Shown piece after piece: positions 37,334 through 61,213 of a stretch of 64,000 nt of DNA; the first letter of the stretch is position 1; every line of letters begins with the position of its first letter. The translations under genes were made by a program, and so were the position numbers. The notes below the pieces were generated by a model. The model saw only the letters and a list, made by a program, of their open reading frames with translations, was not told where the DNA came from and made no database searches. The stretch comes from Halodesulfovibrio aestuarii DSM 17919 = ATCC 29578. Its GTDB lineage: Bacteria > Desulfobacterota > Desulfovibrionia > Desulfovibrionales > Desulfovibrionaceae. The stretch is from the NCBI RefSeq assembly GCF_000384815.1, contig NZ_ARQF01000021.1, positions 744,001 to 808,000 on the forward strand. Direction: 5' to 3'.

Positions 37334-37343
37334 CATAAATCTC

Positions 37344-38339: not shown

Positions 38340-38633
38340 AATTAATACTCCTGCATCGCTGAAATTGCGGAACCAGTCTTCACTTTGGCAATGGCACAGA
38401 TGATCGTAAAGTACTGACCATAGCTGTACCAAAAACAACTAGCAAAAGAGTGAATGACTTAGTATCTTATGGGAAGTTATGCGCTGCGTGTTCCATGCAA
38501 AAAACATGTAGATATCCCCTGAGAGGGGTAGAAACTAAAGGAACCGGGTGGATGAACCCGGCCCTCCAGTTTTCTGCGGGTTTACTAATAGATATAAACC
38601 CGGTCTCGGCAGAGATATTTTTGAATAGCGGGA
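38340..38633 (-). other. hydG-hydE intergenic region with three hairpins
   Basis: This 294-base gap inside the maturation operon holds a series of perfect hairpins: CCCCTGAGAGGGG near 38516-38528, CCGGGT-GGATGA-ACCCGG near 38542-38560 and CGGGTTTA-N10-TAAACCCG near 38577-38603. None has a proper U-tract for the operon's strand. They may be processing or stability elements or part of a structured RNA. A plus-strand frame starting at 38450 (MNDLVSYGKLCAACSMQKTC) runs into hydG on the opposite strand and is not called. Confidence 0.5.
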
Positions 38634-40043: not shown

Positions 40044-40057
40044 ATCCGCCTCCGTGG

Positions 40058-40300
40058 CTATACAAGTGAAGATTTAACTTTTACGCTAGAAAGGTTGCCA
40101 AGTTGACCGGTGAATGCACCAACCTCGTTCGTGGTTGCCTCAATGATAAGGGCAATGACACTAAGTCCCCTATCACGACACGGCAGGCCCATGCGGGCAA
40201 GAACGATGTTACTATGTTTGGTTATGATGTCATTCACACTGCCAGCCTCACGCTTTCTATCGCCAACAATGATACTTACAACGCCCATGCGCTTTTCCAT
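40058..40300 (-). CDS. iron-only hydrogenase system regulator (TM1266-like)
   Basis: About 80 residues from the ATG at 40300 (a longer start at 40342 is possible). The sequence MEKRMGVVSIIVGDRKREAG + SVNDIITKHSNIVLARMGLP + EATTNEVGAFTGQLGNLSSV matches the small ACT-domain protein family found next to [FeFe] hydrogenase maturation genes (TM1266). It is proposed to regulate the system; the ligand is unknown. It lies between hydB and hydG in the same direction, 14 bases before hydG. Confidence 0.8.
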   Translation of the reverse strand: MEKRMGVVSIIVGDRKREAGSVNDIITKHSNIVLARMGLPCRDRGLSVIALIIEATTNEVGAFTGQLGNLSSVKVKSSLV

Positions 40301-40390
40301 GATCACATGCTCTCTTGTGTAGAACGTCGAAATTTGATCCATACGGGCAGGTCGGTTACGCGTTGAGTTCATTGCTCTTTTAGCCGACGG

Positions 40391-40439
40391 AAAAAAGGGC
40401 GGCCCTGAGGTTCAGACTATTCCTTCCCGCAGGCTGCCC
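40391..40439 (-). terminator. terminator or attenuator between hydB and the maturation genes
   Basis: On the minus strand GGGCaGCCTG ... CAGGGCcGCCC with a loop of about 22 bases is followed by TTTTTT at 40396-40391. It lies just after the hydB stop and before the regulator gene. Because hydG, hydE and hydF follow in the same direction, it may act as a partial terminator that gives more structural than maturation mRNA. Confidence 0.65.
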
Positions 40440-40456
40440 GTAGGACTACGGTACTA

Positions 40457-40798
40457 TTACAGTGCCAGTTTTACGCCTTTGGCTTTCAAAGCCTTAACGC
40501 CTGCACTTCGATCATTGTAGTGAGTGTGGAGTAAATGATGAGATTTATGCCCGCATGGACCTTCATGTAGAAAGCCATCCTTCGCATAAAGCTTCTTAAT
40601 CATTGGGTTGTCCTGAGACTTGCGGATGGAATAAATCTTGCTGTCTGCATTGTACACGGACTGCTGACGCAAACCGACGAATTCCAAGGTCGCTGCGAAC
40701 GCTTCACGGGTAACGTTAAAACCAAGAACTGAGTACCCGCAGGCGATACCAGCAACCTTGATGAAACCACGTCTGCTCATTAATCCTATTTTTTTCAT
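40457..40798 (-). CDS. hydB: periplasmic [FeFe] hydrogenase small subunit HydB
   Basis: 113 residues. AGGAG precedes the ATG. The N-terminus carries a twin-arginine signal, SRRGFIKVAGIACGYSVLGF, so the small subunit takes the complex to the periplasm through Tat. The mature part has YNADSKIYSIRKSQDNPMIK, GPCGHKSHHLLHTHY and GVKALKAKGVKLAL, matching the Desulfovibrio HydB family (usually about 120 residues). It directly follows hydA with a nine-base gap. Confidence 0.93.
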   Translation of the reverse strand: MKKIGLMSRRGFIKVAGIACGYSVLGFNVTREAFAATLEFVGLRQQSVYNADSKIYSIRKSQDNPMIKKLYAKDGFLHEGPCGHKSHHLLHTHYNDRSAGVKALKAKGVKLAL

Positions 40799-40807
40799 AG
40801 TAATCTC

Positions 40808-42133
40808 CTAGCCTACACGTCGCTGATTGAAGCGGCGGTTGATCTTAGCAACAGTGCTATGGAAAAGCGAAGATTGGAGCATTTCAGGCTCAAGAGGTTG
40901 TCCGCCACCATTTACGCAACCACCGGGACAAGTCATGACTTCGATGAAGTGGTACGGTGATTTACCAGCGCGTACTTCGTCGCAGAGTTTTGCCGCATTT
41001 TGTAGGCCACTTACAACAGCAACCTTCACAGTACCGAAATTAGGTACAGGAATATCAGCTGTCTTGATGCCTTCATGGGCGCGGACTACTTTGATGTCCG
41101 GATTGGCAAGGGTGTTACCGGAAAGCACTTCGTAAGCAAGACGTAGTGCGGCTTCCATAACACCGCCACTGGTGCCGAAGATAGTCGCAGCACCTGTAGA
41201 CATACCAAGAGCAGGATCCGGCTGTTCTTCAGGGAGCGAGGCAAAATCAATACCAGCCTGTTTGATCATCCATGCCAGTTCACGAGTATTGATGGTAGCA
41301 TCAATATCACGGGAGCCACTTGCGTTCATTTCAGGACGGAGTCCCTCAAACTTTTTGGCAACACAAGGCATGATGGACACAGTGTACATCTTTTTGCTCT
41401 TAATGCCGGATTGTTCAGAACCATAGGTCTTAGCTAAAGGACCGAGCATACCAATAGGAGACCTACAGGTGGAAAGGTGAGCATTAAGATCTGGGTAAAA
41501 AGTTTCCGCAAACTTTACCCAGCCCGGGCAACATGAGGTGAATTGCGGCAATGGCTTATCACCTTTCTTAACCCTTTCGAGCAGCTCAGTGCCCTCTTCC
41601 ATGATGGTAACGTCCGCAGTCCATTCGTTATCCCATACAAGGCCAAAGCCCAGACGGCGCAATGCTGCATGCATTTTGCCGCCGACGTACGTGCCTGTAG
41701 GCATACCAAAGCATTCGCCAAGGCCATAACGTACAGCCGGAGCAGGCATGGAAACAACAATGGTATCAGGGTCTTTGAGTTTTTCGAATATCTCACCAAC
41801 ATATGAGACCTGTTCACTGATTGCGCCAAAAGGACAGTTGGCAAGACACTGTCCACAGTTGACACATGCCGCAGGATCTACTACCCCGCGTTCACCATCC
41901 GGATGCATTTCCTGAATGGCTCCGGTAGGACAGTGGGTTTCACATTCGCCACATGCCTGACACTTGTCCTTGTCAACCTGAACAAAGAAGAGTGTGGAAG
42001 GATCAACACCCTGAGGGGCGGCAATTTTGTAGTTTACCCCCTCCATCTCCACATTGCTTCCCGTCGCCGGTAGCTTCAGGTTCGCTAAGTAGGCTGGCTT
42101 GGCAGTAGCCTGCTTTTCTTTTGCTCCAGACAT
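40808..42133 (-). CDS. hydA: periplasmic [FeFe] hydrogenase large subunit HydA
   Basis: Catalytic subunit of about 441 residues that oxidises or makes H2. The start is the ATG at 42133 after AAGGAG; the open frame reaches 42166. Two 4Fe-4S motifs (CQACGECETHCPTGAI and CVNCGQCLANCPFGAI) lead to the H-cluster domain: L1 FTSCCPGWVKF, L2 SIMPCVAKKFEG and L3 EVMTCPGGCVNGGGQP. All active-site cysteines are present. An N-terminal extension of about 50 residues (to GVDPSTLFFVQVDKDKC) is longer than in D. vulgaris. It has no Tat signal of its own; HydB supplies it. Confidence 0.95.
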   Translation of the reverse strand: MSGAKEKQATAKPAYLANLKLPATGSNVEMEGVNYKIAAPQGVDPSTLFFVQVDKDKCQACGECETHCPTGAIQEMHPDGERGVVDPAACVNCGQCLANCPFGAISEQVSYVGEIFEKLKDPDTIVVSMPAPAVRYGLGECFGMPTGTYVGGKMHAALRRLGFGLVWDNEWTADVTIMEEGTELLERVKKGDKPLPQFTSCCPGWVKFAETFYPDLNAHLSTCRSPIGMLGPLAKTYGSEQSGIKSKKMYTVSIMPCVAKKFEGLRPEMNASGSRDIDATINTRELAWMIKQAGIDFASLPEEQPDPALGMSTGAATIFGTSGGVMEAALRLAYEVLSGNTLANPDIKVVRAHEGIKTADIPVPNFGTVKVAVVSGLQNAAKLCDEVRAGKSPYHFIEVMTCPGGCVNGGGQPLEPEMLQSSLFHSTVAKINRRFNQRRVG

Positions 42134-42173
42134 AGACAACTCCTTTACTTTGTTACAATTATCCATTCCGGAA

Positions 42174-43070: not shown

Positions 43071-43361
43071 GAGCTTTCAATCCTATTAGTTAGTATGATT
43101 GTGAAACAAGTATCTGTTTTGGATGGTAGCATGGGTTGTTTTCGACAACAATATACTATGCGAAGCCTGTTACGTTTTTGTTAACAACCAATGTCAATGC
43201 AGTATAATACTGATTTCTGATTACCTCCATCCACGCTTGCATTATCTTTTCGTACGAATCTTCCTCAGATCAGTGCGCTCTCCATCTATTTTTGATATAG
43301 CTAATTGTGGTGCAAAATTCATAGTTGCTTCATTTTATCGTCTACATGTTGCGAGGACGTC

Positions 43362-45848
43362 ATGACGGAACAACATAAGAGCGTTGATCAAGTTTTCTCA
43401 GAGCTATCATCATCAATGAACGGCCTGACCTCAGAAGAAGTCGAAAAACGGCTGGAAAAATACGGACAAAACGCTTTAATTGAAAAAAAGGCTAACCCGT
43501 TACTTAAACTTTTAGGTTTCTTCTGGGGGCCTATTCCATGGATGATCGAAGTAGCTGCCCTGCTATCCGCAATCGTGGGACGCTGGGCAGACTTTGTAAT
43601 TATTGTAGTGCTGCTACTGTTTAATGCTGCTATCGGATTTTTTGAAGAGCATAAGGCATCCAATGCGCTGGATGCTTTGAAAAGTCAGCTGGCTCTCAAA
43701 GCTCGTGCATTGCGGGACAACACATGGGGAGAAGTTGAAGCAAATAATCTGGTACCCGGCGATATTGTACGCCTACGTCTGGGAGACGTCATTCCAGCAG
43801 ATGTTGTTCTTGTAAATGGAGATTATATCAGCGTAGACCAAGCCGCCCTTACTGGAGAATCCCTGCCCGTCACAAAAGGGGTGGGTGACACAGCATATTC
43901 CGGTTCAGTTGCAAAACAGGGAGAAATGATTGCAGTGGTCTCCGGAACCGGATCCAACACCTTTTTTGGACGCACCGCAAAATTGGTAGAATCTGCAGGT
44001 GCAGTCTCACACTTCCAGAAGGCTGTACTCTCCATAGGTAATTACCTAATCTACCTGACTCTTGCTATGGTGGCCGTACTAATTCTTGTAGGTCTTGATC
44101 GTGGAGAACGCCCTCTTGAGCTTGTTCAATTTGCACTGATTTTAACTGTAGCCGCTATTCCTGTAGCTATGCCAGCAGTTCTTTCAGTAACTATGGCTGT
44201 AGGTGGTCTTGCTCTGTCTAAGATGGACGCCATTGTTTCCCGTCTGGAAGCTATTGAAGAAATGGCCGGAATGAATATTTTATGTTCGGATAAAACAGGC
44301 ACTCTGACTCAGAACAAACTCACACTAGGAGACTCGGTTCTCTTTGGAGCCAAAAACGTCGAAGAGTTACTTCTAATAGGTTCTCTAGCCAGCAAAAGTG
44401 AAGATGGAGATTCTATTGATTTGGCGATCATGGCAAAACTTGAAAATCCAGATGCCCTTCAGCAATTTAACCAACTCAAATTTATCCCGTTTGACCCAGT
44501 CCATAAACGAACAGAAGCCGAAATCAAAGGGCCTGAGGAAACAACATTCAGAGTCACTAAAGGAGCCCCACAGACAATAATCAACTTAAGTGACTTGTCC
44601 GAAGCAGACAGAGCTAAGGCGTTAAAAGACGTGGATGATTTTGCAGCAAAAGGCTTCCGGACATTAGGTGTAGCTCGCTCCAGAAATAACAGTTCGTGGG
44701 AATATCTAGGCACGTTGTCTCTGTTTGATCCTCCTCGAGAGGACTCAATTGAAACTATATCGCAGGCCAATAAACACGGCATCGCAGTAAAGATGGTTAC
44801 CGGAGACAATATAGCTATAGCCCGAGAGACAGCTAAAAAGTTAGGACTTAGTACTAACATAATTGAGGCTGAAGCTTTTTTTGATAAGGACGAGGATATA
44901 CAAAGTCTTAGCTCAGATATTGAACGGCGCATTGAGAAAGCCGACGGATTTGCTCAAGTCTTTCCCGAGCACAAGTACGGTATTGTTAAGGCTTTTCAAG
45001 ATCTAGGGCACCTTACAGCTATGACCGGTGACGGTGTTAATGACGCCCCTGCCTTAAAACAGGCTGACGTGGGGGTTGCCGTCTCTGGAGCCACTGACGC
45101 GGCTCGAGCTGCAGCGGATCTGGTTCTCACGGCACCCGGTCTATCCGTTATCATTCGCGCCGTTGAACATGCGCGTATGATCTTTGAACGCATGAATTCC
45201 TACGCCATCTACCGCATAACCGAAACCATCCGTATTATGCTCTTCGTGGTCATAGCCATTCTGGTATACAACTTCTATCCTATTACAGCCATAATGATCA
45301 TCTTGCTGGCACTACTTAATGACATTCCTATCATGACCATAGCCTACGACAACACATGGCTGGATCCCAAACCTGTGCAATGGGATATGAAGCGTGTCTT
45401 GACCGTATCCACAGTGCTGGGGGTTATCGGAGTAGTAGAAACTTTCGGTCTACTAATTATTGCGAAAACCTGGCTTGGTCTGGACATAGCTCAGATTCAG
45501 TCCTTCATTTTCCTCAAACTTTCCGTGGCCGGACATCTTACCCTCTTTGTAGCTCGTTCCCGCAAACCTTTCTGGTGCAGGCCGTTTCCTGCCCCTTCCA
45601 TGATCTGGTCCGCTCTGGCTACTAAGCTTCTTGCTACTCTCATAGTAGGAATGGGTTGGTTTATGGCTGCTGTTCCTTGGGAATACATCGGCCTTATCTG
45701 GGGCTATTGTATTCTTTGGATATTTATCGAGGATTGGACAAAACTGATCATTTACGACCACTTAAAATTGGAAAGTCCGCGTCACAAATGTTTCCTCAAG
45801 TGTCTGAATAAGTCCGTGCATCATCATACGCACTACGGAGTCAAATAG
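43362..45848 (+). CDS. proton-efflux P-type ATPase (type IIIA)
   Basis: 828 residues from the ATG at 43362 with GAGGA. Layout of plasma-membrane H+-ATPases: N-terminal cation ATPase domain (SSSMNGLTSEEVEKRLEKYG), actuator DQAALTGESLPV, phosphorylation site CSDKTGTLTQNKLT, KGAPQ nucleotide-binding segment, hinge MTGDGVNDAPALKQADVGVA and about ten membrane helices. A His-rich C-terminal end (SVHHHTHYG) is present. By family it pumps protons, though bacterial members are little studied. The fragment MWCKIHSC upstream of the chosen start is unlikely to be translated. Confidence 0.88.
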   Translation: MTEQHKSVDQVFSELSSSMNGLTSEEVEKRLEKYGQNALIEKKANPLLKLLGFFWGPIPWMIEVAALLSAIVGRWADFVIIVVLLLFNAAIGFFEEHKASNALDALKSQLALKARALRDNTWGEVEANNLVPGDIVRLRLGDVIPADVVLVNGDYISVDQAALTGESLPVTKGVGDTAYSGSVAKQGEMIAVVSGTGSNTFFGRTAKLVESAGAVSHFQKAVLSIGNYLIYLTLAMVAVLILVGLDRGERPLELVQFALILTVAAIPVAMPAVLSVTMAVGGLALSKMDAIVSRLEAIEEMAGMNILCSDKTGTLTQNKLTLGDSVLFGAKNVEELLLIGSLASKSEDGDSIDLAIMAKLENPDALQQFNQLKFIPFDPVHKRTEAEIKGPEETTFRVTKGAPQTIINLSDLSEADRAKALKDVDDFAAKGFRTLGVARSRNNSSWEYLGTLSLFDPPREDSIETISQANKHGIAVKMVTGDNIAIARETAKKLGLSTNIIEAEAFFDKDEDIQSLSSDIERRIEKADGFAQVFPEHKYGIVKAFQDLGHLTAMTGDGVNDAPALKQADVGVAVSGATDAARAAADLVLTAPGLSVIIRAVEHARMIFERMNSYAIYRITETIRIMLFVVIAILVYNFYPITAIMIILLALLNDIPIMTIAYDNTWLDPKPVQWDMKRVLTVSTVLGVIGVVETFGLLIIAKTWLGLDIAQIQSFIFLKLSVAGHLTLFVARSRKPFWCRPFPAPSMIWSALATKLLATLIVGMGWFMAAVPWEYIGLIWGYCILWIFIEDWTKLIIYDHLKLESPRHKCFLKCLNKSVHHHTHYGVK

Positions 45849-45962: not shown

Positions 45963-47663
45963 TTAGCTGGCAGTCTCAAAAAAGGTTGGTTCACACTGGA
46001 CTACTTCTTTATACGAGGCGTATTGGCGGATAGTACCATCACCCGTAATATGGATAATTGATTCAAAATGCTGAAGTAAACTCATATTGTGCACAATCAT
46101 CAGGACGGTTTTTTCTTTAAGGGTAGTATGGAGCAGATCCAGCAATCTGTTTTCAGACTCTGTATCCATGTTGGATGTGGCTTCATCAAACAGGTACCAG
46201 CTGGTATTGCGTAGTAATGCTCGTGCCAGAAGAATTTTTTGACGTTGCCCACCGGACAACTGCTTGCCGTTTTCCCCCACTGAAGATGCCATCTGTAGCT
46301 CTTGTAGCCCACACTCTTTTATTCTCTCAATCAAATTGTTTTCAGAATATGAGACAGACATACAAAGATTATCGAGAACGGATCGATTGAACAAAAAACT
46401 GTCTTGCCCGATAGCAGAAAAAGATGCGCGATATTTTTGCAAGTCATACTCGCTGATATCTTTTCCATTTAGAGTAATTATGCCCTGATTCGGCTTAAAG
46501 AAACGTTCGATCAAAGAAAATACTGTGGATTTACCTGCACCATTTTGTCCGATGATGGCAATTTTCTCACCTTGTCCTACCGTTAAATTCGCATCTTTCA
46601 AAACATACTTATCACCATAGGCAAATGAGACATTCTTGAAAGCCAGCTCACAAAATTCAGGAACGGACTCACTGCCTCCCTGCTCACAATGTTCAGAACT
46701 GTGATCGAGTAAAAGAAAATAGCGCTCTGCGGAAGGGATAATGCCAGAAAGTAAAAATTTAATATTAAGAACGGCAGAAATGGGGTCAAGCACTTGTATG
46801 CTGTAGCTGATAAATGCAAACAAGCTCCCCATAGTAAGAGAATTATCCAAGATAAAATATGCACCTGTCAGCAGTAAAATTGCTTCCAAGCTGTGTATAA
46901 AAAAAACTTCAGAGCATAAATTCATGCTTTGCAGAATGGTTACCTTGCGTTGAGCATTAGCTACAGAAAAAACCTGCTTTGCAGCTTCATCCTGCATCTT
47001 ATTTTGGATACCGAACAAACGGATATCCTTGATGCCATTCAAACTGTCTCCAAACCAATGTCCGAAGGACGTGATAAAATTTAATAGAACGTTAAACTGT
47101 TTTTTTTGTCTGTTGGAAAAGTAATGAACGCACAAGTATTTGACTGGAATAAAAAGAAAAACAAGCATAGCGAGTCGTTGGTCAATTACAAACAATCCGA
47201 CAATTCCGCCACAAAAAGTAAGCAATTGTGTTACCACAAAAAAAACTGAGTTGTCGCAAATCTTATTAAGGTTACCAATGTCCGTAGTTAAATCATTGAG
47301 CATTTCCGCACTGTTTTTCTTTGTGAAATACGCGATATCTACGCGTAAGAAACTATCAAATGCATCTTTAACTAGTTTCTGATGTATTCCGGAGGCGATG
47401 TCCGCCCGCAAAAATTCCTTAAGCATCTCAGCCAGTGAACTGAGTATGATCGTGCCCAACATCATTGCAACAATGATACATACTGTCGTGAAATCTTGTT
47501 TTAGTACGCCGTCATCAATAAGCATTTTGTTCAAAAGCGGATATGCTATGGAAGCTGCGGTAAAAACTACAAGGCACAACAAAATCAACGCCAGTTTTCT
47601 TTTATAAAAAGAAAAAAGTGTAATGATGCGTGAAATAATCTGTTTATTTTGATTGAATGGCAT
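45963..47663 (-). CDS. ABC transporter, fused permease-ATPase (RiPP exporter)
   Basis: 566 residues. Six membrane helices (about residues 15-310) precede an ATPase domain with Walker A IGQNGAGKST, LSGGQRQKILLARALL and Walker B WYLFDEATSNMD. No N-terminal peptidase domain (C39) is present, which fits the separate subtilase gene directly upstream (three bases apart). Last gene of the peptide cluster; it should export the matured Cys-rich peptide. Confidence 0.85.
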   Translation of the reverse strand: MPFNQNKQIISRIITLFSFYKRKLALILLCLVVFTAASIAYPLLNKMLIDDGVLKQDFTTVCIIVAMMLGTIILSSLAEMLKEFLRADIASGIHQKLVKDAFDSFLRVDIAYFTKKNSAEMLNDLTTDIGNLNKICDNSVFFVVTQLLTFCGGIVGLFVIDQRLAMLVFLFIPVKYLCVHYFSNRQKKQFNVLLNFITSFGHWFGDSLNGIKDIRLFGIQNKMQDEAAKQVFSVANAQRKVTILQSMNLCSEVFFIHSLEAILLLTGAYFILDNSLTMGSLFAFISYSIQVLDPISAVLNIKFLLSGIIPSAERYFLLLDHSSEHCEQGGSESVPEFCELAFKNVSFAYGDKYVLKDANLTVGQGEKIAIIGQNGAGKSTVFSLIERFFKPNQGIITLNGKDISEYDLQKYRASFSAIGQDSFLFNRSVLDNLCMSVSYSENNLIERIKECGLQELQMASSVGENGKQLSGGQRQKILLARALLRNTSWYLFDEATSNMDTESENRLLDLLHTTLKEKTVLMIVHNMSLLQHFESIIHITGDGTIRQYASYKEVVQCEPTFFETAS

Positions 47664-47666
47664 TGG

Positions 47667-49223
47667 TCAGCAATCCAGTGTTGATAAAATGGTTTTGTAT
47701 ACCATGCTAATAAAGTTTTTTTCCGTGCAACCAGTGCTACTTGTTGCTGGAATATGATGTGATGATTGCCATTGATGTCGACCTTCGTCCAAGTTGCTAT
47801 TCCAGCATATTGTCGCCCCATCAGTACTGCTGCAATAAATTGCGATATCAGCAAGTTTGTCCATATGGGACGCTGTCTGCTTATCAAACGCACCTTCTAA
47901 AAGCTGGACTCCACAAATATGCACATCTGCTTGTGCAGTTTCTTCCATTGCTCGAAAAAAGGAGTCATCTTGTAGTGTTTCGTACTGAATATAGTAAAAA
48001 CGTTGCAGAGTTCCCGCAGGTACATTGGTCGCTATGCAAGCATGATATCCGTCCGTGGAGAAACTCTGTGCTAATTGTGCGCAAGTTCGCAACAATGTCT
48101 TTGAAGTGTGATCATAGACTATGATGAATGGAGCCTCTAAAGACTGCTGTTTCGGGAGAGGAAAATGCGGCAGACGCTTCTGTGAGCTCCAAAACTTATG
48201 TTGGAAACCTGCAGGGGGAAGTACAGAGAAGCTGTCAACAATCGCGACATGTTTTTCCATACTGCATACGTGGCGTATCATTTTTTGTTTCTCAGCCCGT
48301 GTCATAGTGTCATCAAAAGCCAAAACTATGGTGTCAAACTCACTACACCGTGTTGATGATGCACTATTACGCAATATACCATACTGGTTCAGAGGCACTT
48401 CCATGACCACATGAAAAAAGAAGAACTCTGTTAAGCCGCTCACATCGCCAATAACGAATGCATTAACAATCCAGTCAGGAAAACAAGGCGCATGCCTGAA
48501 CAGTGGCATTTGAATATATGAAGCTAATGCTTCCAGTGTCTGTACAGGATGAAACCTGTACCCTTCATATAACATGGAGCATATACAGGCCGTTACATAC
48601 GGTGCAGCAAAGCTATTCCCTGTGCCTGTTGAAATTCTTTCTAAGGTCTTGCATTGTAATGTATGATTGCCCCGTGCGGAGACCTCAATACCGTTAAAAG
48701 GACGATCGCAGAGTTTTAATTTCTGTTCGTCGGGCAATTCAGCTTCCTGCACACCGATAACATTCGAAAAAGATGCAGGATACGTCATATAGCCGATATT
48801 TGATTGAGCACAGACAACTATGGAACGCTTACTCAGCATGGAAATCAATGGTTGTAAGACATCAGCATCAGCAAAATTAACAGATCCAGCGCAAATTGTG
48901 ACAATGTCAACAGAGTGATTAACGCACCATAAAAGGGCAGCACATAGAGCTTGAATATCGCCCTTTCCATTATGGTTATTGAGAACTTTTAAGCTACTGC
49001 ACCGAAATAAATGGCAATATTTTTTTAAGATTGCCGCACACGTTGTTCCATGCGTCAGTTCTTTTACATCATGAACTGCACGTGGAACAAAGGTGTTTGT
49101 ATCCGACGCAAATTCAAGATCATAACATAACGGTATATCGAAAATACTCCCGTTAATCCCGTCATCAATAAAAACAACATGTGCAGCAGCCATATGTGCT
49201 CCCGCAATGGGAGATATGTTCAT
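47667..49223 (-). CDS. S8-family subtilase of the RiPP cluster
   Basis: 518 residues. The catalytic triad is visible: Asp in VVFIDDGING, His in ELTHGTTCAAILKK and Ser in STGTGNSFAAPYVTA. No signal peptide, so it is cytoplasmic, and it is probably the leader-cleaving protease of the peptide. The C-terminal 250 residues are beta-rich and not recognised (they include VCSMEKHVAIVDSF-like and FSTDGYHACIATNVP stretches). It belongs to the set of proteins that accompany CLI_3235-type precursors in clostridia. Co-directional with neighbours. Confidence 0.82.
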   Translation of the reverse strand: MNISPIAGAHMAAAHVVFIDDGINGSIFDIPLCYDLEFASDTNTFVPRAVHDVKELTHGTTCAAILKKYCHLFRCSSLKVLNNHNGKGDIQALCAALLWCVNHSVDIVTICAGSVNFADADVLQPLISMLSKRSIVVCAQSNIGYMTYPASFSNVIGVQEAELPDEQKLKLCDRPFNGIEVSARGNHTLQCKTLERISTGTGNSFAAPYVTACICSMLYEGYRFHPVQTLEALASYIQMPLFRHAPCFPDWIVNAFVIGDVSGLTEFFFFHVVMEVPLNQYGILRNSASSTRCSEFDTIVLAFDDTMTRAEKQKMIRHVCSMEKHVAIVDSFSVLPPAGFQHKFWSSQKRLPHFPLPKQQSLEAPFIIVYDHTSKTLLRTCAQLAQSFSTDGYHACIATNVPAGTLQRFYYIQYETLQDDSFFRAMEETAQADVHICGVQLLEGAFDKQTASHMDKLADIAIYCSSTDGATICWNSNLDEGRHQWQSSHHIPATSSTGCTEKNFISMVYKTILSTLDC

Positions 49224-49226
49224 GGG

Positions 49227-49487
49227 TTATTCCACTAGCCTATTTCCAATGATTTCAGTCAAACCATCAAGAGTATAGAAGCTAGGATCCTGAACATCTT
49301 TTTCTAAAGAAATAGAGAACTTTTTTTCCACTTCGAAAAAAACATATACCAAATCGCATGCATATATTTTTATGCGCTTCCCAAAAAAATTCTCCTTCCC
49401 TAAGCCTTTTTCAAGTAAATTGATATCAAACTTGTCCACAAAGAGTGCGTTCACAAATGCGCGTATCGTCTGAGTTTGAGCATTCAC
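49227..49487 (-). CDS. acyl-carrier-like protein of peptide maturation cluster
   Basis: 86 residues from GTG 49487, which follows AAAGGAAC; an earlier GTG at 49532 overlaps the upstream gene. Helical, with the ACP-type pattern FFGKRIKIYACDLVYVFFEV + EKKFSISLEKD. The place of the phosphopantetheine serine (DSL in ACPs) reads YAC, so no carrier serine is visible. It fits the acyl-carrier-related family (TIGR04069-like) known from clostridial peptide clusters. A protein-protein scaffold for the maturase is more likely than a true acyl carrier (inference). Confidence 0.7.
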   Translation of the reverse strand: MNAQTQTIRAFVNALFVDKFDINLLEKGLGKENFFGKRIKIYACDLVYVFFEVEKKFSISLEKDVQDPSFYTLDGLTEIIGNRLVE

Positions 49488-49525
49488 GTGAGTGTTCCTT
49501 TCGTTAAAACTGTTGCTAAGAGTGG

Positions 49526-50638
49526 CTAACACACTTCGACCTCAGCATTTGCAGCGAGCTGGTCAATGATCTTCATAAAAAAATGTTCCCGTTTCTGTCG
49601 GATTTCAATGGTGGTAGTCATATCCGTAAAGGGCTTGGAAGAAAGAACCTCAGGTTCAAGCATCAAAAGCGGAAAATGATCATCCTGTTCGTAGCCAGAA
49701 AACGTAGTCGTAATATTATCGAGAAGGAAACCGGAAACATCGATGCTGAATCTGTTCTCTAATAATTGAGTTAAGTTACTAAAATATTCTTTTGGATATT
49801 CATTATAAAGAGTGCAGATAATGGAAGCATCCGGCGAGATTCCCTGCGTCATCTCAAACGCAGTAATACCGAATCTGTTTGTAATTTTGGATGTTGCTGG
49901 GAGTAAACCTCCAGGTACGCCGATGATAATGACGTCAGGAGACTCAGTGACTTCGATATACTTTACGTAGTTACTGAAGAGAAGAATCTTCTCTTCCTCT
50001 GTAAAATCTTTGCTGAACATAAATCCGGGCACAGGGTTTCCTCCAACCAATTCTCCATATCCCCGGGAAGTAACCAGAGACACTTTGTAGCCTTGAGTTG
50101 TAAGAAAATCTTCCAGTGCAAGTTGTGTTTCAAATTTACTAACTTGTTCAATAAGTCCAAAGACCATTATAACAGGAGCATGGATGTCTTGCGCAATAAT
50201 TTCATTACGCAATGCCTGCTTTGCTGTTTGGATGTGCTCAATGTTTTTATTGATATACTGAAATGTTACGCCATATTCAGAACATTTTTGTACAAGCCTA
50301 TCACGTTCGGTTTCTGTCAGGTCAACTGTACAGGCAATGTTTTTCTTTCGTTCTATAGCAAGGTGCATACGTGGAATCAGACATTCATCCTTGCTCACGT
50401 GATTGTCAGATTGTGTGAAGAGAACTGTTTCACATTGTTCTAAGGCTTGTTCAAAATCATTTGTGACTGTCATTCCGAGGGGAGAACCTTTGTCGGCTAC
50501 ACCTGCATCCAGCCCGCACACTCCCCAACCGGAAGGAGAAACCAGCGCGGTAAAATCGAATTGTTTCACTTTGTCTGCATAGCGCAGTATTGGAAGAAAC
50601 TGTCTGTCAAAAGGATATACAAGAGTTTTCTGTGCCAT
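49526..50638 (-). CDS. peptide maturation system protein, TIGR04066-like
   Basis: 370 residues, the start six bases past the maturase stop. The N-terminus has YPFDRQFLPILRYADKVKQF and GWGVCGLDAGVADKGSPLG. In the middle, PVIMVFGLIEQVSKFETQLA and TSRGYGELVGGNPVPGFMFS resemble a P-loop-like fold without a standard Walker A. The C-terminus has EMTQGISPDASIICTLYNEYP. By its position and motifs it fits the TIGR04066 peptide maturation family that accompanies Cys-rich-peptide radical SAM maturases. No known reaction. Confidence 0.72.
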   Translation of the reverse strand: MAQKTLVYPFDRQFLPILRYADKVKQFDFTALVSPSGWGVCGLDAGVADKGSPLGMTVTNDFEQALEQCETVLFTQSDNHVSKDECLIPRMHLAIERKKNIACTVDLTETERDRLVQKCSEYGVTFQYINKNIEHIQTAKQALRNEIIAQDIHAPVIMVFGLIEQVSKFETQLALEDFLTTQGYKVSLVTSRGYGELVGGNPVPGFMFSKDFTEEEKILLFSNYVKYIEVTESPDVIIIGVPGGLLPATSKITNRFGITAFEMTQGISPDASIICTLYNEYPKEYFSNLTQLLENRFSIDVSGFLLDNITTTFSGYEQDDHFPLLMLEPEVLSSKPFTDMTTTIEIRQKREHFFMKIIDQLAANAEVEVC

Positions 50639-50644
50639 GCGCTT

Positions 50645-52084
50645 TTATCCCCATGCCTGTAATGTTGTTTTTTCATTTTCGAAAACATAGCCATGTTCAA
50701 GTAGCGTGCAGTAGTCGCGTAAAATTTCATGGGTTAAATATTTAACGCTGCTACATTCCTCAAGTCTCTTTTGTTTTGACAACGAATCAATATCATCCGC
50801 AACCGCAACACACTGATAGCAATGAATAAATGCCCAACATTTTTTGCATACATCTTCTGTAAGACGAGCAATGTTCAAAATTTTAGAAACTTGCTGCATA
50901 TCAAAACCAGTGTCGATATGCCCGATACACGTGTTCTTTGATGTTTCACTTACCCGTTCACAGGGATAGAGTTCACCATCCACATTCATAAAAAGCTTTG
51001 TCGCTCCGGGAACGCATGGCCCACCCGGATGGCATTTCTCTGGTAACGATGAATAATGTTGACGCACTAAATACATTCGAGTCTGAATTTGTTGAAATTT
51101 TTCAGCCATGATTGCTGAAATGTACTTCCCATCGACCCGTTGTAATTTGTGAAGTAACAGTTTGAATTTATCTATTTCTTCATCAATAAAAAAGCTGTCT
51201 GGAACAATGACTTCATCTTTCTTATACTGCATTGAAACAAGGCTGGCTGTTACTTGTGCGCCTTCGAGTTCCTTGCTGGTTATAAAAAAGTTGTTTGTAC
51301 ACGCTTTACCTAGTGTCGGATCGATAACTGCATTAAAGATAATACGTTTATAAAATTCAGGGAAATGTGTTTTAATATGTTGAAGATTATGCATGATGGC
51401 ATCGAACGTCCCCTTACCGGAGGCCGCAAAAACACGGTTTTTATCGTGTACTTCCTTTGAACCATCAAGACTGATCATAACTGAAAAGGCATTTTCGGAT
51501 AAAAACCTAATATTTTCATCGGTAAAGAGTGTGCCGTTTGTCGTAACGTTAAAGAAAACCTTTTTACCTTCCGCACTTTTTTTTGCGTACGCGACTACCT
51601 TCTTCATTAAATCAAAAGCAAGCAGAGGCTCCCCGCCATAGAAATTGATTGCTACTGTCGGAATATCAACCGAACGCTGCAGAACAAAATCAATGCCTTT
51701 CTTTGCCATTTCAAAGGACATTTTTTTTCCGCTATGTTCCCTACTCTTATAACTTCCTGAGTAGATGCAGTATTTGCATCGCAGATTGCATTGCTGAGTA
51801 ACCTGAAGTGTAATGCCTTCAACTCTTCGGCATAAAATTTCATTTAGAATTTGTTCGTATTGATGTTCAATTTGACAAACAGGGGAAGGATGAAGGTAAC
51901 CTTCTCCGTACAATTTTTTTAAAAAAAGAGTATCGTCATTAGATAACTGCGTTTCTGTTTTTTTATCAAAAAGTGCATGAATATTCTTTGGAACTTTTAT
52001 CACAGCATTTTTGTTGCCGTCGAAGAGGTAGTAATTACGTGGAGTGCAAAAAGGGTGCACTAGAGCTTTCGATAGTTCTTGCAT
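50645..52084 (-). CDS. radical SAM peptide maturase (CcpM-like, SPASM)
   Basis: 479 residues. The SAM cluster motif is CNLRCKYC in QQCNLRCKYCIYSGSYKSR. An N-terminal region of about 80 residues (NYYLFDGNKNAVIKVPKNIH) has the winged-helix look of a RiPP-recognition element. The C-terminal SPASM-type end has Cys-rich clusters CHPGGPCVPG, LYPCERVSE, then EDVCKKCWAFIHCYQC, for auxiliary 4Fe-4S clusters. It resembles the Cys-rich peptide radical SAM maturase (TIGR04068) family. It should install thioether or related links on the precursor's cysteines. It is 109 bases after the precursor gene. Confidence 0.82.
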   Translation of the reverse strand: MQELSKALVHPFCTPRNYYLFDGNKNAVIKVPKNIHALFDKKTETQLSNDDTLFLKKLYGEGYLHPSPVCQIEHQYEQILNEILCRRVEGITLQVTQQCNLRCKYCIYSGSYKSREHSGKKMSFEMAKKGIDFVLQRSVDIPTVAINFYGGEPLLAFDLMKKVVAYAKKSAEGKKVFFNVTTNGTLFTDENIRFLSENAFSVMISLDGSKEVHDKNRVFAASGKGTFDAIMHNLQHIKTHFPEFYKRIIFNAVIDPTLGKACTNNFFITSKELEGAQVTASLVSMQYKKDEVIVPDSFFIDEEIDKFKLLLHKLQRVDGKYISAIMAEKFQQIQTRMYLVRQHYSSLPEKCHPGGPCVPGATKLFMNVDGELYPCERVSETSKNTCIGHIDTGFDMQQVSKILNIARLTEDVCKKCWAFIHCYQCVAVADDIDSLSKQKRLEECSSVKYLTHEILRDYCTLLEHGYVFENEKTTLQAWG

Positions 52085-52140
52085 ATGAATCTGCTCATCT
52101 GTAAATGTTATACGCGTTTAAAAAATAGCCTTTACAATAT

Positions 52141-52178
52141 GAGTATAGCTAAGACGTTATTACACCTTAGCTATACTC
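52141..52178 (-). terminator. hairpin between precursor and maturase genes
   Basis: GAGTATAGCTAAG (52141-52153) pairs exactly with CTTAGCTATACTC (52166-52178) over a 12-base loop. No strong U-tract follows, so a partial terminator or an mRNA-stabilising end is likely. It sits 16 bases beyond the precursor stop. Such hairpins are common behind RiPP precursor genes and allow more precursor than enzyme mRNA. Confidence 0.75.
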
Positions 52179-52193
52179 TGAATGCGTTACATA

Positions 52194-52340
52194 CTAGTGA
52201 ACAGAGTTGCTTCTTTTTATAGAATAAGTAATGCTGTAGCGGGTGTTACGTATGTAACAAGAGCAGTAAGAGCAGTAGCAAGAGCTGAATGCAGAAACTG
52301 TGTTAGTTGTATTTTGGTTTTTTTTAGCAAGTTTTTTCAT
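52194..52340 (-). CDS. Cys-rich RiPP precursor peptide (48 residues)
   Basis: ATG 52340 after AAAAAAGGAAATTACA opens a frame of 48 codons ending TAG. The leader is MKKLAKKNQNTTNTVSAF and the core begins SSCYCSYCSCYIRNTRYSIT. Four cysteines lie in a C-x-C-x2-C-x-C cluster (residues 21-28). MKKLAKKN is the start typical of CLI_3235-type precursors and the cluster downstream encodes the expected maturase, TIGR04066-like protein, ACP-like protein, subtilase and exporter. A basic C-terminal tail of 20 residues (RNTRYSITYSIKRSNSVH) follows the Cys cluster and is less usual. The gene was read directly from the sequence. Confidence 0.8.
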   Translation of the reverse strand: MKKLAKKNQNTTNTVSAFSSCYCSYCSCYIRNTRYSITYSIKRSNSVH

Positions 52341-52371
52341 TGTAATTTCCTTTTTTAGTAGTTTGTGAATC

Positions 52372-52385
52372 AGAAATCGATTTCT
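52372..52385. promoter_or_regulatory. 14-base perfect palindrome in the RiPP operon leader
   Basis: AGAAATCGATTTCT is a perfect palindrome 32 bases ahead of the precursor start and 30 bases downstream of a -10-like TATAAT (52420-52415, minus strand). Its place after the putative start of transcription suggests a repressor operator. No strong -35 is visible. Confidence 0.5.
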
Positions 52386-52548
52386 TCTTACAGGTTTCCC
52401 TATATCGAAATTAGATTATACTCTATTTTTTTATTTATAACAGTATTGCAGCAAAAAAATATATTAGTACTCAGTACATAGTACAAAAAAAGCCCCTACC
52501 ATACGGTAAAAATTGAAAGTTACCATAATGCCCAATTATGAGTTAAAA

Positions 52549-52652: not shown

Positions 52653-53102
52653 TCATTTTTTACGTTTCACGGTTTGTTTATAATAGTCTCCCACGGCCTC
52701 ATGCAAGGCGTTGGCTGCTAACCAAGCGCAATGCTGGTCATCAACAGGCAGACAGTCAGCCCCTCCCAAACCTTCAAGAACAGTCTCTCCCGTGATTGCA
52801 GCAAGGTCGTCACAAGGCTTGCCCACGGCCAGCTCCGCAGCCATGGACCCGCTGATCATGCTGGAACCGCAGCCGTCAGTAGCGAACCCGGCATCACAGA
52901 CTCTGTCGTCGTCAATATACAGGAATATTCGTATAGTCTCACCGCACCCCCCAGTGGATGCGCCCTCATAGTTAGCCTTGGCGGGTTTTCCCCGATGCGG
53001 CGGGTTGCGCCAACGCTCAAACCCCGCCTGCCCAAAGGCCTCAATGGTTTCGTTATTAATTTTACCCTGAAGTTCATTCACAATTTCATCAAAACTGGGC
53101 AC
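52653..53102 (-). CDS. NifU/IscU-like iron-sulfur scaffold protein
   Basis: 149 residues from a GTG start. The pattern STGGCGETIRIFLYIDDDRV, DGCGSSMISGSMAAELAVGK and QHCAWLAANALHEAV gives the three conserved cysteines of the IscU/NifU N-terminal fold with the GCGSS loop. An N-terminal GASTGGCG glycine run follows HRGKPAKANYE. Its family assembles 4Fe-4S or 2Fe-2S clusters for transfer to apo-proteins. It is not part of an isc operon here. Possibly supplies FeS clusters for the nearby hydrogenase and radical SAM enzymes (inference). Confidence 0.85.
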   Translation of the reverse strand: MPSFDEIVNELQGKINNETIEAFGQAGFERWRNPPHRGKPAKANYEGASTGGCGETIRIFLYIDDDRVCDAGFATDGCGSSMISGSMAAELAVGKPCDDLAAITGETVLEGLGGADCLPVDDQHCAWLAANALHEAVGDYYKQTVKRKK

Positions 53103-53268: not shown

Positions 53269-54150
53269 TTAAGCCACAAGGTCATACTGTTCATTGCGAT
53301 ACTTAAAGGTGGCAGGGAAAAGCCAGTCATTACTCGAATGTTGCCGCCTTAGATTATAGTACGCCTCGATATAGTTAAATAGAGCCAATTCGGCTTCATG
53401 CTTGGTTTTAAATCTCCTGTGACGGATCAGCTGATTTTTGATTGTTTGAAAAAAAGACTCTGCTACTGCGTTGTCCCGGAAGTTCCCTTTCCGGCTCATG
53501 CTCTGAATGTAGCCGTGCTTTTTCAAGCACCTGCGGAAATCCTTGCTTGCATACTGTACGCCTCGGTCACTGTGGATCAGAATACCGGAAGAGGGTTTCC
53601 GTCGTGCCACAGTCTTCTTTAAAGCATGGATAACGGAATGCCGTTCTAACGAATCACTAAAATCCCACCCAACTACCATTCGGGAATACAGGTCGATGAG
53701 CACGGTCAGATAATGCCACTTTCGTCCAACCTTGATGTACGTAATATCAGTAACCCAAGCCATATCGGGAGCTGACGTAGTAAAATTGCGATCGAGCAGA
53801 TTAGGAGCAACAGGCTCCGTATATGCAGAATCTGTTGTAGGGATAAATTTCTTCGCATACTTACAGCGTAGTCTCAATGCTCGCATATGCTTGGCAACAC
53901 GAGCCTGACTAACACTCTGGAATAAAGGCTCATCACGCAATTCAGAGGTGAGCATAGGGCTTCCGATCATCCCATTATGTTCGTTGTATATTGCTATGGT
54001 CCGCTTGCGAAGTAGCGCATTTACCTGTTTTCGTTGTGACTCTGGACGCTTACATCACGCATAATATCCGCTCATGGAAATTTGTAGGGTCTGGCACATC
54101 TTCTTCATCGGAAACGTAGAGCGTTTTGACTTGACGAATTTGAATCTCAT
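53269..54150 (-). pseudogene. IS3-family orfB transposase with internal stop
   Basis: From ATG 54150 the frame reads MRFKFVKSKRSTFPMKKMCQ + TLQISMSGYYA, then TGA at 54057-54055, then CKRPESQRKQVNALLRKRT and continues to 53269. The stop replaces the Trp or similar residue that the family has there, so it is a nonsense mutation. The part after it keeps the integrase core: DMAWVTDITYIKVG (first Asp), LIDLYSRMVVGW (near the motif), ILIHSDRGVQYAS (second Asp) and NAVAESFFQTIKNQLI (Glu). A truncated protein of 233 residues could start at the internal ATG 53970. Confidence 0.88.
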
Positions 54151-54458
54151 TTCGATGTTCTGCTGAAGATGCCCAAAGCTTTTTTAAAATATCACGCTCC
54201 ATTTCAGCATCTTGGAGCCGTTTTCGAAGCTCTTTTATCTCTCGTTGCTCTTCTGTTAAAGCCCTCTTTTCCACGATCTGGAAATGCGATTTCTTTGTGT
54301 GCTGTCAGCTCCCTACGCCAACGATAGAGCAGACCCTTAGGAATCTCCAAACTCTCTGCTACACCTGCGACAGTTCGACCTTCTTCATCACAGAGCAGAA
54401 CAGTATTCTTTTTGAACTCAGCATCATATGATCTACGCATTCGGACACTCATCTCCAT
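54147..54458 (-). pseudogene. IS3-family orfA with two compensating frameshifts
   Basis: The HTH start, RRSYDAEFKKNTVLLCDEEG + RTVAGVAESLEIPKGLLYRW, is in one frame. A base too many in a G-run (54262-54264) shifts it, so the leucine-zipper segment (ALTEEQREIKELRKRLQDAE) is read in another frame. A missing A in the run at 54180-54185 restores the first frame for the end KALGIFSRTSK and the TGA overlapping the orfB start. The two changes cancel in length but scramble about 28 residues. Confidence 0.85.
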
Positions 54459-55226: not shown

Positions 55227-57338
55227 ATGAAAGCCCAAAGGAAACCATTTCATCAGGAATTTGCAGAACAGATTATCGACGACTTGAAAAACGGCACAGC
55301 GCCTTGGCAAAAGCCGTGGAAGGCAGGCGAATTCCACCCACCGTTCAATCCAATCTCTGGCACCATCTACAGTGGCGTTAACTTCGTATCACTTGCTCGC
55401 GAGGGCATGGATGATCCGCGATTCGTTACCTTCAACCAAGCCAAAAAGGAAGATTGGCGTATCAAAAAAGGTTCTAAGTCCCGACCTGTGGTCTTCTGGC
55501 AGTTTACTAAAGAAGAAAATGTCCTCGATGACAACGGCAAGCCTGTTTTAGGCGACGACGGCAAACCTAAAAAAGAGGAACTCCGACTTGAGCGCCCTAT
55601 TCTGCGCTTTGCCAGCGTATTCCACGCGACACAAGTTGAAGGAATGCCAGAATGGAAGGGACGGGATGTTAGCTGGAATCCACACGAACGCAGTGAAGCG
55701 ATTCTCGAAGGCTCCGGCGCATCTATTACCCACGATCAGCGCGACCGCGCATTCTTTTCTTACACTTGGGATCAAATCAAACTCCCACCTAAAGACAAGT
55801 TCGAAGATCAGAACAAATACTACGCGACCGCGCTCCATGAACTTGGCCATTGGACCGGTCATGAAAAGCGTTGGAACGGCAACGAGCGCACCTTCGGCCC
55901 GAAAGGAACGCAGGAATACGCACGAGAAGAATTGAACGCCGAAATCGGAAGCTGGATGACCGCTATGGAACTCGGCCTCGAGTACGATCGTGGCCAACAC
56001 CTCTCCTACGTAGACAGCTGGATTCAGGCCCTTGAGAAAGATCCATACGAGATTATGCGTGCTTGCCAGACCGCTGAGCGCATCAAAGGCCACATGCTCG
56101 GCTTTGAAAAAGGTATCAAGATGGAAGATCAGAAAGAAGAAAAGATAGCTAAGGAGAGGTCCAAAGGGGAGCGTGAGCACGATCGAACTCCAGCGCAGCC
56201 AGCTATAAATAAAACGTTCCTTGCCGTTCCATTTTCACAAAAAGACGCTGCCAAAAAACTCGGTGCAAAATGGGATGGTCGTAAGAAGAGTTGGTACGCT
56301 CCGGAAGGTGCTGACATGTCCGGCCTGAATCAATGGCTGCCGAAAGAAAACCATCAAGAGAGCAAGCCGCACATGGCTCCAGAGCAAGAGTTTGCTCAAG
56401 CACTGCGTGAGGCTGGCCTGATCGTGGAAGGCTTGCCCATTATGGACGGAAAGCTCCAACGTGTTCGAGTTGAAGGCGGCCGTCAGAACGCCAAGGACGG
56501 CACTTACACTGGCTATTTAGATGGTCGCCCTGCCGGATTTATCGAGAATCATAAAACAGGTTTTCGAACTAACTGGAAGGCTAACGGGCACAAGCTTTCT
56601 CCTGAAGCAATGGCCGAAATTAAAGCAAATGCTGCAATCCGGCATGAAGCTCGCGAGCTGGAACGAAAAGAAGAACAAGATCGTGCTGCTAGACGCGCCT
56701 ATGTTAAATGGAAAAATGCCAAGGGTTGGGCACCGGATGATCAGCAATACCTTCAGAAAAAAGGTGTGAAGAGCCACGGAACCAAGATTGATATGCATGG
56801 AAATTTGCTTATCCCGGGACGCGACTCCGGCGGCCGCATACAAACCATGCAGACCATTACAACGGATGGAAAATTGTTCGAGTCCGGAGCCAAGAAACAA
56901 GGCGCGTTTCACCTCATTTCGCACTATTCAAGCACAAACTTGAAACAGCCAATTCTTATTGCTGAAGGCTACGCAACGGCTGCGAGCATTCATGAGGCAA
57001 CACATAAGCCTGTAGCGGTCGCATTTGATGCTGGAAACCTTGAACCGGTGGCAAAAGAGCTGAAAAAAGTGTTTCCAGATGCTCCGTTTGTTTTTGTTGC
57101 TGACGATGATCACACCCAGAAAAACAATCCTGGCATCACAAAGGCCCACGCAGCAGCACGAGCCGTTGATGGCGCTGTCCTTGAGCCAAAGCTTACTGAG
57201 GCTGAAAAAGCAAAGGGGCTAACGGATTACAACGACATTCATCAAGAGCGCGGACTTGACGCACTCAAAGTTGAACTGAACGTCGGCATTCGCAAAGCGC
57301 TTAGCAAAAAACAAAGCCACGAGCTGGTTCCTCAGTAA
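55227..57338 (+). CDS. TraC-like primase with ArdC and metallopeptidase-like domains
   Basis: 703 residues. N-terminal ArdC/DUF1738 ssDNA-binding domain (about 8-145; FHQEFAEQIIDDLKNGTAPW + QKPW). The metallopeptidase-like polyvalent domain has HELGHWTGH at 204-212 and EELNAEIGSWM. A DUF5710-type piece (AVPFSQKDAAKKLGAKWDGR + KKSWYAPEG) lies about 328-372. The C-terminal half has the Toprim primase core: LIPGRDSGGRIQTMQTI, PILIAEGYATAASIHEATHK and FVFVADDDH. The order matches RP4-TraC-like plasmid primases, which make primers and protect entering ssDNA. Full length. Confidence 0.87.
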   Translation: MKAQRKPFHQEFAEQIIDDLKNGTAPWQKPWKAGEFHPPFNPISGTIYSGVNFVSLAREGMDDPRFVTFNQAKKEDWRIKKGSKSRPVVFWQFTKEENVLDDNGKPVLGDDGKPKKEELRLERPILRFASVFHATQVEGMPEWKGRDVSWNPHERSEAILEGSGASITHDQRDRAFFSYTWDQIKLPPKDKFEDQNKYYATALHELGHWTGHEKRWNGNERTFGPKGTQEYAREELNAEIGSWMTAMELGLEYDRGQHLSYVDSWIQALEKDPYEIMRACQTAERIKGHMLGFEKGIKMEDQKEEKIAKERSKGEREHDRTPAQPAINKTFLAVPFSQKDAAKKLGAKWDGRKKSWYAPEGADMSGLNQWLPKENHQESKPHMAPEQEFAQALREAGLIVEGLPIMDGKLQRVRVEGGRQNAKDGTYTGYLDGRPAGFIENHKTGFRTNWKANGHKLSPEAMAEIKANAAIRHEARELERKEEQDRAARRAYVKWKNAKGWAPDDQQYLQKKGVKSHGTKIDMHGNLLIPGRDSGGRIQTMQTITTDGKLFESGAKKQGAFHLISHYSSTNLKQPILIAEGYATAASIHEATHKPVAVAFDAGNLEPVAKELKKVFPDAPFVFVADDDHTQKNNPGITKAHAAARAVDGAVLEPKLTEAEKAKGLTDYNDIHQERGLDALKVELNVGIRKALSKKQSHELVPQ

Positions 57339-57415
57339 TAAACATGCGTCTCGTCTGCTTAGGCGGGACGCCCTTCCCACCAGCATCTTCCCATCAAATT
57401 TCATAGGACAAACAT

Positions 57416-59512: not shown

Positions 59513-59514
59513 TT

Positions 59515-60423: not shown

Positions 60424-60428
60424 CGACT

Positions 60429-61061: not shown

Positions 61062-61213
61062 CTAATTCTCCCGAATCTGCTCGTAAGCATCTCAGTTATA
61101 TCCTTCACATTAGCCAGCAACTTATTAACATCAAAAGATCACTCAAAAAAGGGATAGATTGTTGCTAATATGAATACAAATTAACCAACACCTGTGAACT
61201 TCATTTTTGCTAC

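Follow-up and report, generated by a model that had tools for sequence, protein, structure and literature searches.

A probable CcpM-type RiPP cluster in the sulfate reducer Halodesulfovibrio aestuarii and its sister clusters in Desulfovibrionaceae

Does the window analysed here, a stretch of 64,000 nucleotides from the sulfate reducer Halodesulfovibrio aestuarii (genome G000), hold a complete set of genes for a cysteine-rich ribosomally synthesized and post-translationally modified peptide (RiPP), and what would such a set of genes make in this host? The genes are real, and together they are very likely a complete and, judging from the sequence, probably functional CcpM-type RiPP cluster of the CLI_3235 family, a known bacteriocin-type system for which this host is unusual. 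The gene set itself is already known to be common in clostridia and Paenibacillus, and what is new is a member of this system in a sulfate reducer. As the preliminary description of this DNA had claimed, the whole CLI_3235/CcpM maturation set and a short precursor lie in six minus-strand genes; the six co-directional frames in the frame listing of the window span 45963–52340 (all coordinates are positions in the window), and the features are as follows.

52194–52340, minus strand: RiPP precursor of the CLI_3235 family, 48 residues (TIGR04065 match, frame conservation, a precursor in the same position in four relatives).
52141–52178, minus strand: hairpin of 17 base pairs in the gap between precursor and maturase, a possible attenuator (fold z = −4.76).
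50645–52084, minus strand: radical S-adenosylmethionine (SAM)/SPASM maturase CcpM, 479 residues (TIGR04068, invariant Cys).
49526–50638, minus strand: TIGR04066 accessory protein, 370 residues (TIGR04066, AlphaFold2, Foldseek).
49227–49532, minus strand: acyl carrier protein (ACP)-like protein, a frame of 101 residues from GTG (TIGR04069 below cut-off, ACP fold, column counts).
47667–49223, minus strand: subtilase (S8) protease, 518 residues, probable leader peptidase (Pfam Peptidase_S8; D20, H58 and S204).
45963–47663, minus strand: ATP-binding cassette (ABC) exporter with membrane and ATPase domains, 566 residues (Pfam ABC_membrane and ABC_tran).

No gene was seen in the 80 bases upstream of the precursor that the interval first described (45963–52420) also covers. 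As expected of a CLI_3235/CcpM cluster, the Cys-rich core adjoins the subtilase and the ABC exporter in the frame listing and Pfam matches; neither of these two genes is universal in such clusters. The hidden Markov model (HMM) searches proposed in the preliminary description placed the precursor (41.1 bits, cut-off 26), the maturase (578 bits, cut-off 500) and the TIGR04066 protein (317 bits, cut-off 200) over the NCBIfam cut-offs, and left the ACP-like protein under that of TIGR04069.

The precursor, MKKLAKKNQNTTNTVSAFSSCYCSYCSCYIRNTRYSITYSIKRSNSVH, has 48 residues and an ATG start preceded by AAAGGAAATTACA (read by eye). Its leader, MKKLxKK...TVSAF, is followed by a CxCx2CxC core and a 20-residue basic tail rich in Tyr and Arg, and among the 308 ATG-started frames of 30–100 residues in the window it alone has the pattern C.C..C.C, as it alone has the start MKKL.K. 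Related clusters were found in H. spirochaetisodalis JC271 (G402, loci L010 and L017), in a second genome of the same genus (G395), in a genome of another genus (G456) and in a genome judged to be Desulfovibrio sp. UBA2564 (G609), which is 84% complete. The precursor frame is kept where the enzymes are kept, on which the preliminary description had staked its reading: each of the five Desulfovibrionaceae clusters found has it directly before the maturase gene. In a codon-by-codon comparison with the H. spirochaetisodalis precursor, which is equally long, 14 codons are the same, 12 carry silent changes and 22 encode another residue, with 26 of the 53 nucleotide differences at third positions; the nonsynonymous rate (dN) is 0.34 and the synonymous rate (dS), which is saturated, is 2.79 (NG86). 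From this codon pattern, selection appears to act on the frame at the protein level. An alternative frame of 37 residues over the precursor (52217–52330) was rejected since stops interrupt the corresponding frame in H. spirochaetisodalis. The TIGR04065 cut-off is passed by three of the four Desulfovibrionaceae precursors outside the window (30.9, 39.3 and 39.2 bits). The fourth, from G395, gives no TIGR04065 match at E 1e-6 and was assigned by its place, its leader and its CxCx2CxC block; its match to our own precursor HMM, the seeds of which included the G395, window, L010, L013 and L015 rows, is not independent because it is itself a seed. Between precursor and maturase a strong hairpin occurs in all five clusters (fold z −3.80 to −4.76), the sequences of which differ, and the window hairpin is absent from the terminator-scan list; this element is a possible attenuator that would keep the precursor transcript in excess.

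The maturase carries a CNLRCKYC motif and a Cys-rich C-terminal part, in which C357, C375, C413, C416, C422, C425 and C444 are invariant in six sequences. Other maturase models remain far below their cut-offs (PapB 206 bits against 340, RumMC 200 against 720 and SCIFF 147 against 425), and the best structural match among solved structures is 5wgg (6.4e-35), which we take to be the ranthipeptide maturase CteB. The subtilase belongs to family S8 (Peptidase_S8 31.6 bits, cut-off 21.8), and its catalytic triad is intact and invariant in seven sequences; it is only distantly QhpE-like, with 67 bits against a cut-off of 165 for NF049966. No C39 peptidase domain was present among the Pfam matches of the exporter. 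Elsewhere in the genome (G000:C20:88746–92087), two further radical SAM proteins with weak TIGR04068 matches (54 and 49 bits) lie near each other and are possibly another peptide-modifying pair.

How did such a cluster come to be in this organism? The maturase was found in three of the ten genomes of the genus and in five of the 288 of the family (E 1e-100), and in an even draw of 395 genomes of the phylum the genome of the window was the only one to hold it; when contigs of genomes and viruses were scanned for close relatives with the window maturase alone, there were no matches. An alignment query returned 79 genome loci from the best 80 of 431 matched stretches, of which two are from Desulfovibrionaceae, three are without a taxon name and 74 are Bacillota by title, including nine Paenibacillus; locus L059 is presumably from Bacillota. 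The view that this type of cluster is mainly known from clostridia is thus broadly right and, as Paenibacillus shows, incomplete. The flanks of 54 of the 79 loci, all outside Desulfovibrionaceae, were surveyed with our own HMMs over 5 kb on each side of the maturase, with 25 left out (loci with a short flank, L018, the duplicate L054, and L029, which has no maturase frame). TIGR04066 is present in all 54 of these surveyed loci, the ACP-like protein in 50, the precursor in 46, the ABC exporter in 40 and the subtilase in 36.

In a maximum-likelihood tree of 87 maturases, without an outside root, the five Desulfovibrionaceae sequences lie on one branch (ultrafast bootstrap and approximate likelihood-ratio test, SH-aLRT, 100/100), and the other 82 rows are Bacillota, save a few rows that lack a phylum label or stem from 'phage' records (origins from a quick tree). 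The tree left out L010, L054 and all frames of 500 bits or fewer, one of which is L015, as well as L029, which had no frame above 500 bits and the precursor of which is counted among the precursors below. The simplest reading is one entry into Desulfovibrionaceae, followed by loss or spread among members, and we infer the direction, from Bacillota, from where the diversity lies. Locus L014, read for a time as a Bacteroidota cluster from a SusC-like start at one end (by eye), was dropped as such, its maturase standing among Lachnospiraceae/Eubacterium rows in the quick tree. An empty site was sought in G403, which has both flanks (79% identical up to 45831 and 90% from 52508) on different contigs, so that no single insertion event can be demonstrated. 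The clusters seem to be at different genomic places, because no DNA match to the window was found around the G395 cluster beyond the cluster genes, and because the NifU-like gene that borders the window cluster lies on contig C12 in G402, with the cluster on C58.

The preliminary description had also set the long basic tail of the precursor apart from a simple core that ends in Cys. Its length is ordinary: at least 15 residues follow the last Cys in 77 of the 79 unique precursors (from 84 frames, after dropping the L010 copy, which is the same stretch as L017, and repeated sequences), with a median of 29 in the 74 from outside Desulfovibrionaceae, so that a long tail is a family trait. The strong basic charge is distinctive for the clade, since a net tail charge of at least +3 is found in five of five Desulfovibrionaceae precursors versus seven of the 74 others (Fisher 3.5e-5, kinship ignored, the five being one clade). 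The 74 have medians of six Cys, 64 residues and a tail charge of +1, whereas the window precursor has four, 48 and +4; clostridial CLI_3235/CcpM clusters share the entire gene set and a leader of the form MKKLxKK...T(V/I)xA(Y/F). CxCx2CxC is present in 23 of the 79 unique precursors, and in Desulfovibrionaceae the exceptions are the G456 peptide, which is without it, and the G609 peptide, which has six Cys. Two or three different CLI_3235-type precursors stand near one maturase in, for example, L026, L033, L049, L052, L065, L083 and L089.

What would the window cluster make? In the mechanism that we propose, the 48-residue precursor would be made in excess, with the hairpin separating it from the maturase gene, and CcpM, via its radical SAM and auxiliary Fe–S clusters, would link Cys of CxCx2CxC, either all four or only some of them, to other residues by thioether bonds of the sactionine or ranthipeptide type. 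The ACP-like and DUF1611-like TIGR04066 proteins would assist or add further modification, the subtilase would cut off the leader and the ABC exporter would carry the peptide across the inner membrane. A small cationic bacteriocin is the probable product, and it is in these terms that we infer its chemistry, activity and export route; a relative of it has been purified.

That relative is SacP23 of Paenibacillus polymyxa, in view of which the earlier statement that the product of such clusters is unknown does not hold. SacP23, from a TIGR04068/TIGR04066/TIGR04069 cluster, was expressed in Bacillus subtilis and purified as a bacteriocin active against methicillin-resistant Staphylococcus aureus; it inhibits some Gram-positive bacteria, its N-terminus is blocked, its m/z is 3404 and its structure is unsolved (PMC10731318). 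The cluster of P. polymyxa #23 agrees with that of the window in having a CLI_3235-type precursor with a polar tail after the Cys block, TIGR04068, TIGR04066 and TIGR04069-type proteins, a subtilase and an ABC transporter, but it differs in having seven Cys in the precursor versus four in the window, the ABC gene before the maturase, a Gram-positive host, and eight genes including a sigma-factor-like and another extra gene (PMC10731318). Unmodified SacP23 precursor fragments of 3350–3450 Da that hold all seven Cys and start at residues 9–20 all end at residues 41–51 of 60, so the C-terminal part of the tail would be trimmed, if no large group is added. For the window precursor, with its Cys block CYCSYCSC, unmodified core fragments that start at residue 19, 20 or 21 and reach the C-terminus have calculated monoisotopic masses of 3543.58, 3456.55 and 3369.52.

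A signal rather than a killing peptide might be expected on other grounds: SCIFF-derived ranthipeptides of clostridia are reportedly signals, the window CcpM also matches the SCIFF and PapB-type maturase models, far under their cut-offs, and none of the six cluster genes can be recognised as an immunity gene. However, the precursor cores vary widely across the surveyed loci, a pattern that suits antagonism more than a single conserved signal, and SacP23, the sole such product that we found described, inhibits Gram-positives (PMC10731318); we regard a signalling role as rather unlikely.

Several observations weigh against a working bacteriocin-type cluster. The promoter scan shows no minus-strand site upstream of the precursor (the scan overall gave 15 sites versus 19.7 in shuffles), and no outer-membrane export gene was seen among the genes adjoining the window copy. 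The ACP-like protein reaches 53.4 bits (E 2.6e-14) with TIGR04069, under the cut-off of 70. The subtilase is absent in two same-genus relatives, with none nearby in 18 of the 54 surveyed loci, so that it is not strictly needed, and a non-bacteriocin role, for example as a signal or in metal binding, is possible.

The window copy itself is canonical, and the comparison with its sisters and two re-read accessory proteins are more interesting. All five Desulfovibrionaceae clusters start with precursor, maturase, TIGR04066 and ACP-like genes. The ACP-like gene is followed by the subtilase and ABC exporter in the window and in G609, by subtilase, ABC exporter, MacA-like and MacB-like genes in G456, and by ABC exporter, MacA-like and MacB-like genes, with no subtilase, in G395 and G402. 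The H. spirochaetisodalis cluster thus shares with the window the precursor, CcpM (72% identical), TIGR04066, ACP-like protein and ABC exporter, and differs in its added MacA/MacB-like pair and missing subtilase; in whole-genome searches a relative of the window subtilase is present in G000, G456 and G609 and was not found in G395 or G402 at E 1e-5. The G395 MacB-like protein has relatives in G402 (42% identical) and G456 (49%); at E 1e-60 neither G000 nor G609 gave one, but the limit is strict and more distant paralogues would escape it. No MacA- or MacB-like gene above 350 bits (own HMMs) was found in the 54 surveyed loci; seen only in Desulfovibrionaceae among the genomes and loci examined, the pair would make sense in a cell that has an outer membrane. 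Nearby on the opposite strand, G609 has one gene of outer-membrane-efflux type, one of membrane-fusion type and a 1032-residue frame that resembles resistance–nodulation–division (RND) proteins by size and place. On L010 (1–1823, minus strand), past the G402 MacB-like gene, are an HlyD-type gene (648–1823) and the start of an RND-pump-like frame (by eye).

Darobactin-type clusters are radical SAM RiPP clusters with a MacB-like exporter in Gram-negatives, and the membrane-fusion and MacB-like pair of G395, G402 and G456 recalls theirs. The darobactin precursor and maturase subfamily differ from the CcpM type; the window copy is without such a pair, and the DarW model scores 69 against a cut-off of 650.

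The differences among the sisters could also be taken to mean that the cluster was acquired and is now decaying, the Halodesulfovibrio copies having lost the exporter pair in the window and the subtilase in two relatives. Such decay would agree with the patchy presence in the genus, the lower G+C content of the cluster (39.6%, versus 44.0 and 44.2% in the flanks), the transposase and conjugation-type genes nearby, and the subtilase and MacAB-like pair standing together in G456. Yet none of the six reading frames is interrupted, selection at the protein level seems to act on the precursor, and since none of the 54 outside loci has a MacAB-like pair, its absence in the window need not be a loss; we consider decay quite improbable. 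The three sister clusters, which differ by the subtilase or exporter pair, amount to a natural experiment that could tell which of the parts cuts off the leader.

The first re-read accessory protein is TIGR04066, for which an immunity function was proposed for SacP23 from a supposed ATPase relationship (PMC10731318). The high-confidence AlphaFold2 model (predicted local distance difference test, pLDDT, 93.4) has two domains, a Rossmann-like N-domain and a P-loop domain, and is DUF1611/DgcN-like: the best Foldseek matches are the DUF1611 proteins 2obn and 2g0t and 7xrj, titled N-acetyltransferase DgcN (E 2.9e-11 to 1.7e-10, template-modelling score by query 0.45–0.62). Sequence support is weak. 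Among 52 TIGR04066 relatives at E up to 1, eight match DapB_N (best 6.9e-6), seven DUF1611 (best 4e-4) and two DUF1611_N; the window protein matches none of these Pfam families, and the profile of the 52 reaches 2g0t at E 0.47 only. The P-loop ending GK-R/K-T-T of 2g0t is altered: 48 of 52 relatives retain the Lys, but in 48 of 52 the residue after it is Phe. Because of the predicted fold and this P-loop, the published immunity guess is not favoured, and as TIGR04066 is also present in every surveyed locus, we judge immunity highly improbable. The model offers the testable idea that TIGR04066 is not an immunity ATPase but an enzyme of the DUF1611/DgcN kind; that it blocks the peptide N-terminus is speculation.

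The second is the ACP-like protein. TIGR04069 is its sole match at E up to 0.1, its place in the operon is as expected, and its true start may lie further inside the GTG frame. The predicted model has an ACP fold (pLDDT 86), with carrier proteins at Foldseek ranks 1–9 (probability 1.00, but E only 0.03 and worse); the profile of 55 relatives matches ACPs in the PDB (5.6e-9), and nine of the 55 have a match to Pfam PP-binding at E up to 0.1. The phosphopantetheine-bearing Ser of acyl carrier proteins is in a DSL motif. At the presumed site, placed by hand at the column six before a conserved Leu, none of the 55 relatives has Ser and the window protein has Lys; Ser stands two columns before in three of 55 and two columns after in four. 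In G395 (GDSL) and G402 (GKSV) a Ser lies two columns before. Since this Ser is mostly absent, the window protein and most relatives are unlikely to be carriers, although the G395 and G402 proteins may be.

These strands could be joined in one reading, namely that a Bacillota CcpM system was rebuilt for a two-membrane cell by addition of the MacA/MacB-like pair (G456), that inside Halodesulfovibrio the subtilase and the pair became alternatives, with leader removal and export coupled differently in sister species, that the tail is a cationic Tyr/Arg tail, and that TIGR04066 is a DgcN-like transferase which, with its ACP-like partner, blocks the peptide N-terminus. Such blocking, if true, would explain why SacP23 resists Edman degradation; we think it improbable that the reading holds as a whole.

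With this cluster, a bacteriocin system of clostridia and Paenibacillus extends to Gram-negative sulfate reducers, although few genomes of the family carry it. For two accessory proteins of this widespread type of cluster the comparison suggests roles that can be tested: TIGR04066 would be an enzyme of the DUF1611/DgcN kind, and the ACP-like protein would in most cases not be a carrier. In earlier reports, TIGR04068/TIGR04066/TIGR04069 genes are noted in Roseburia intestinalis and TIGR04065 in Blautia (PMC4573289, PMC7872077), and CcpM is named as a previously annotated group (PMC9062424). Our literature search, which took in a small part of the results for Halodesulfovibrio and RiPPs, gave no account of the CLI_3235/CcpM system in sulfate reducers, nothing on point for DgcN or DUF1611, and no experiment on the roles of TIGR04066 or the ACP-like protein.

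Among the neighbouring genes, a NifU_N-domain protein (52653–53102, minus strand; 88–97% identical in four other genomes of the genus) lies directly upstream of the precursor and is possibly an Fe–S scaffold, beside a radical SAM system by chance or not. Upstream of it are transposase genes (53269–54458, minus strand; integrase core and HTH_Tnp_1, IS3-type by reading); DNA matches to three relatives end at 53237. A conjugation-type block (55227–63931) has an ArdC-type anti-restriction/zincin/Toprim protein, a DNA topoisomerase and a HerA/TrwB-like ATPase. The other side of the cluster is bordered by a cation P-type ATPase (43305–45848, plus strand; in two of the ten genus genomes at E 1e-100), and at 36131–42166 an [FeFe] hydrogenase gene (Fe_hyd_lg_C, 40808–42166) stands by frames resembling the HydE/HydF/HydG maturases (by eye). 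Finally, a human-fecal record filed as phage holds a CcpM-type cluster (L015, 2448–4172) with a second ACP-like gene, the precursor downstream and the exporter frame in two pieces, and L013 and L014, filed as phage, likewise hold CcpM-type cluster genes.

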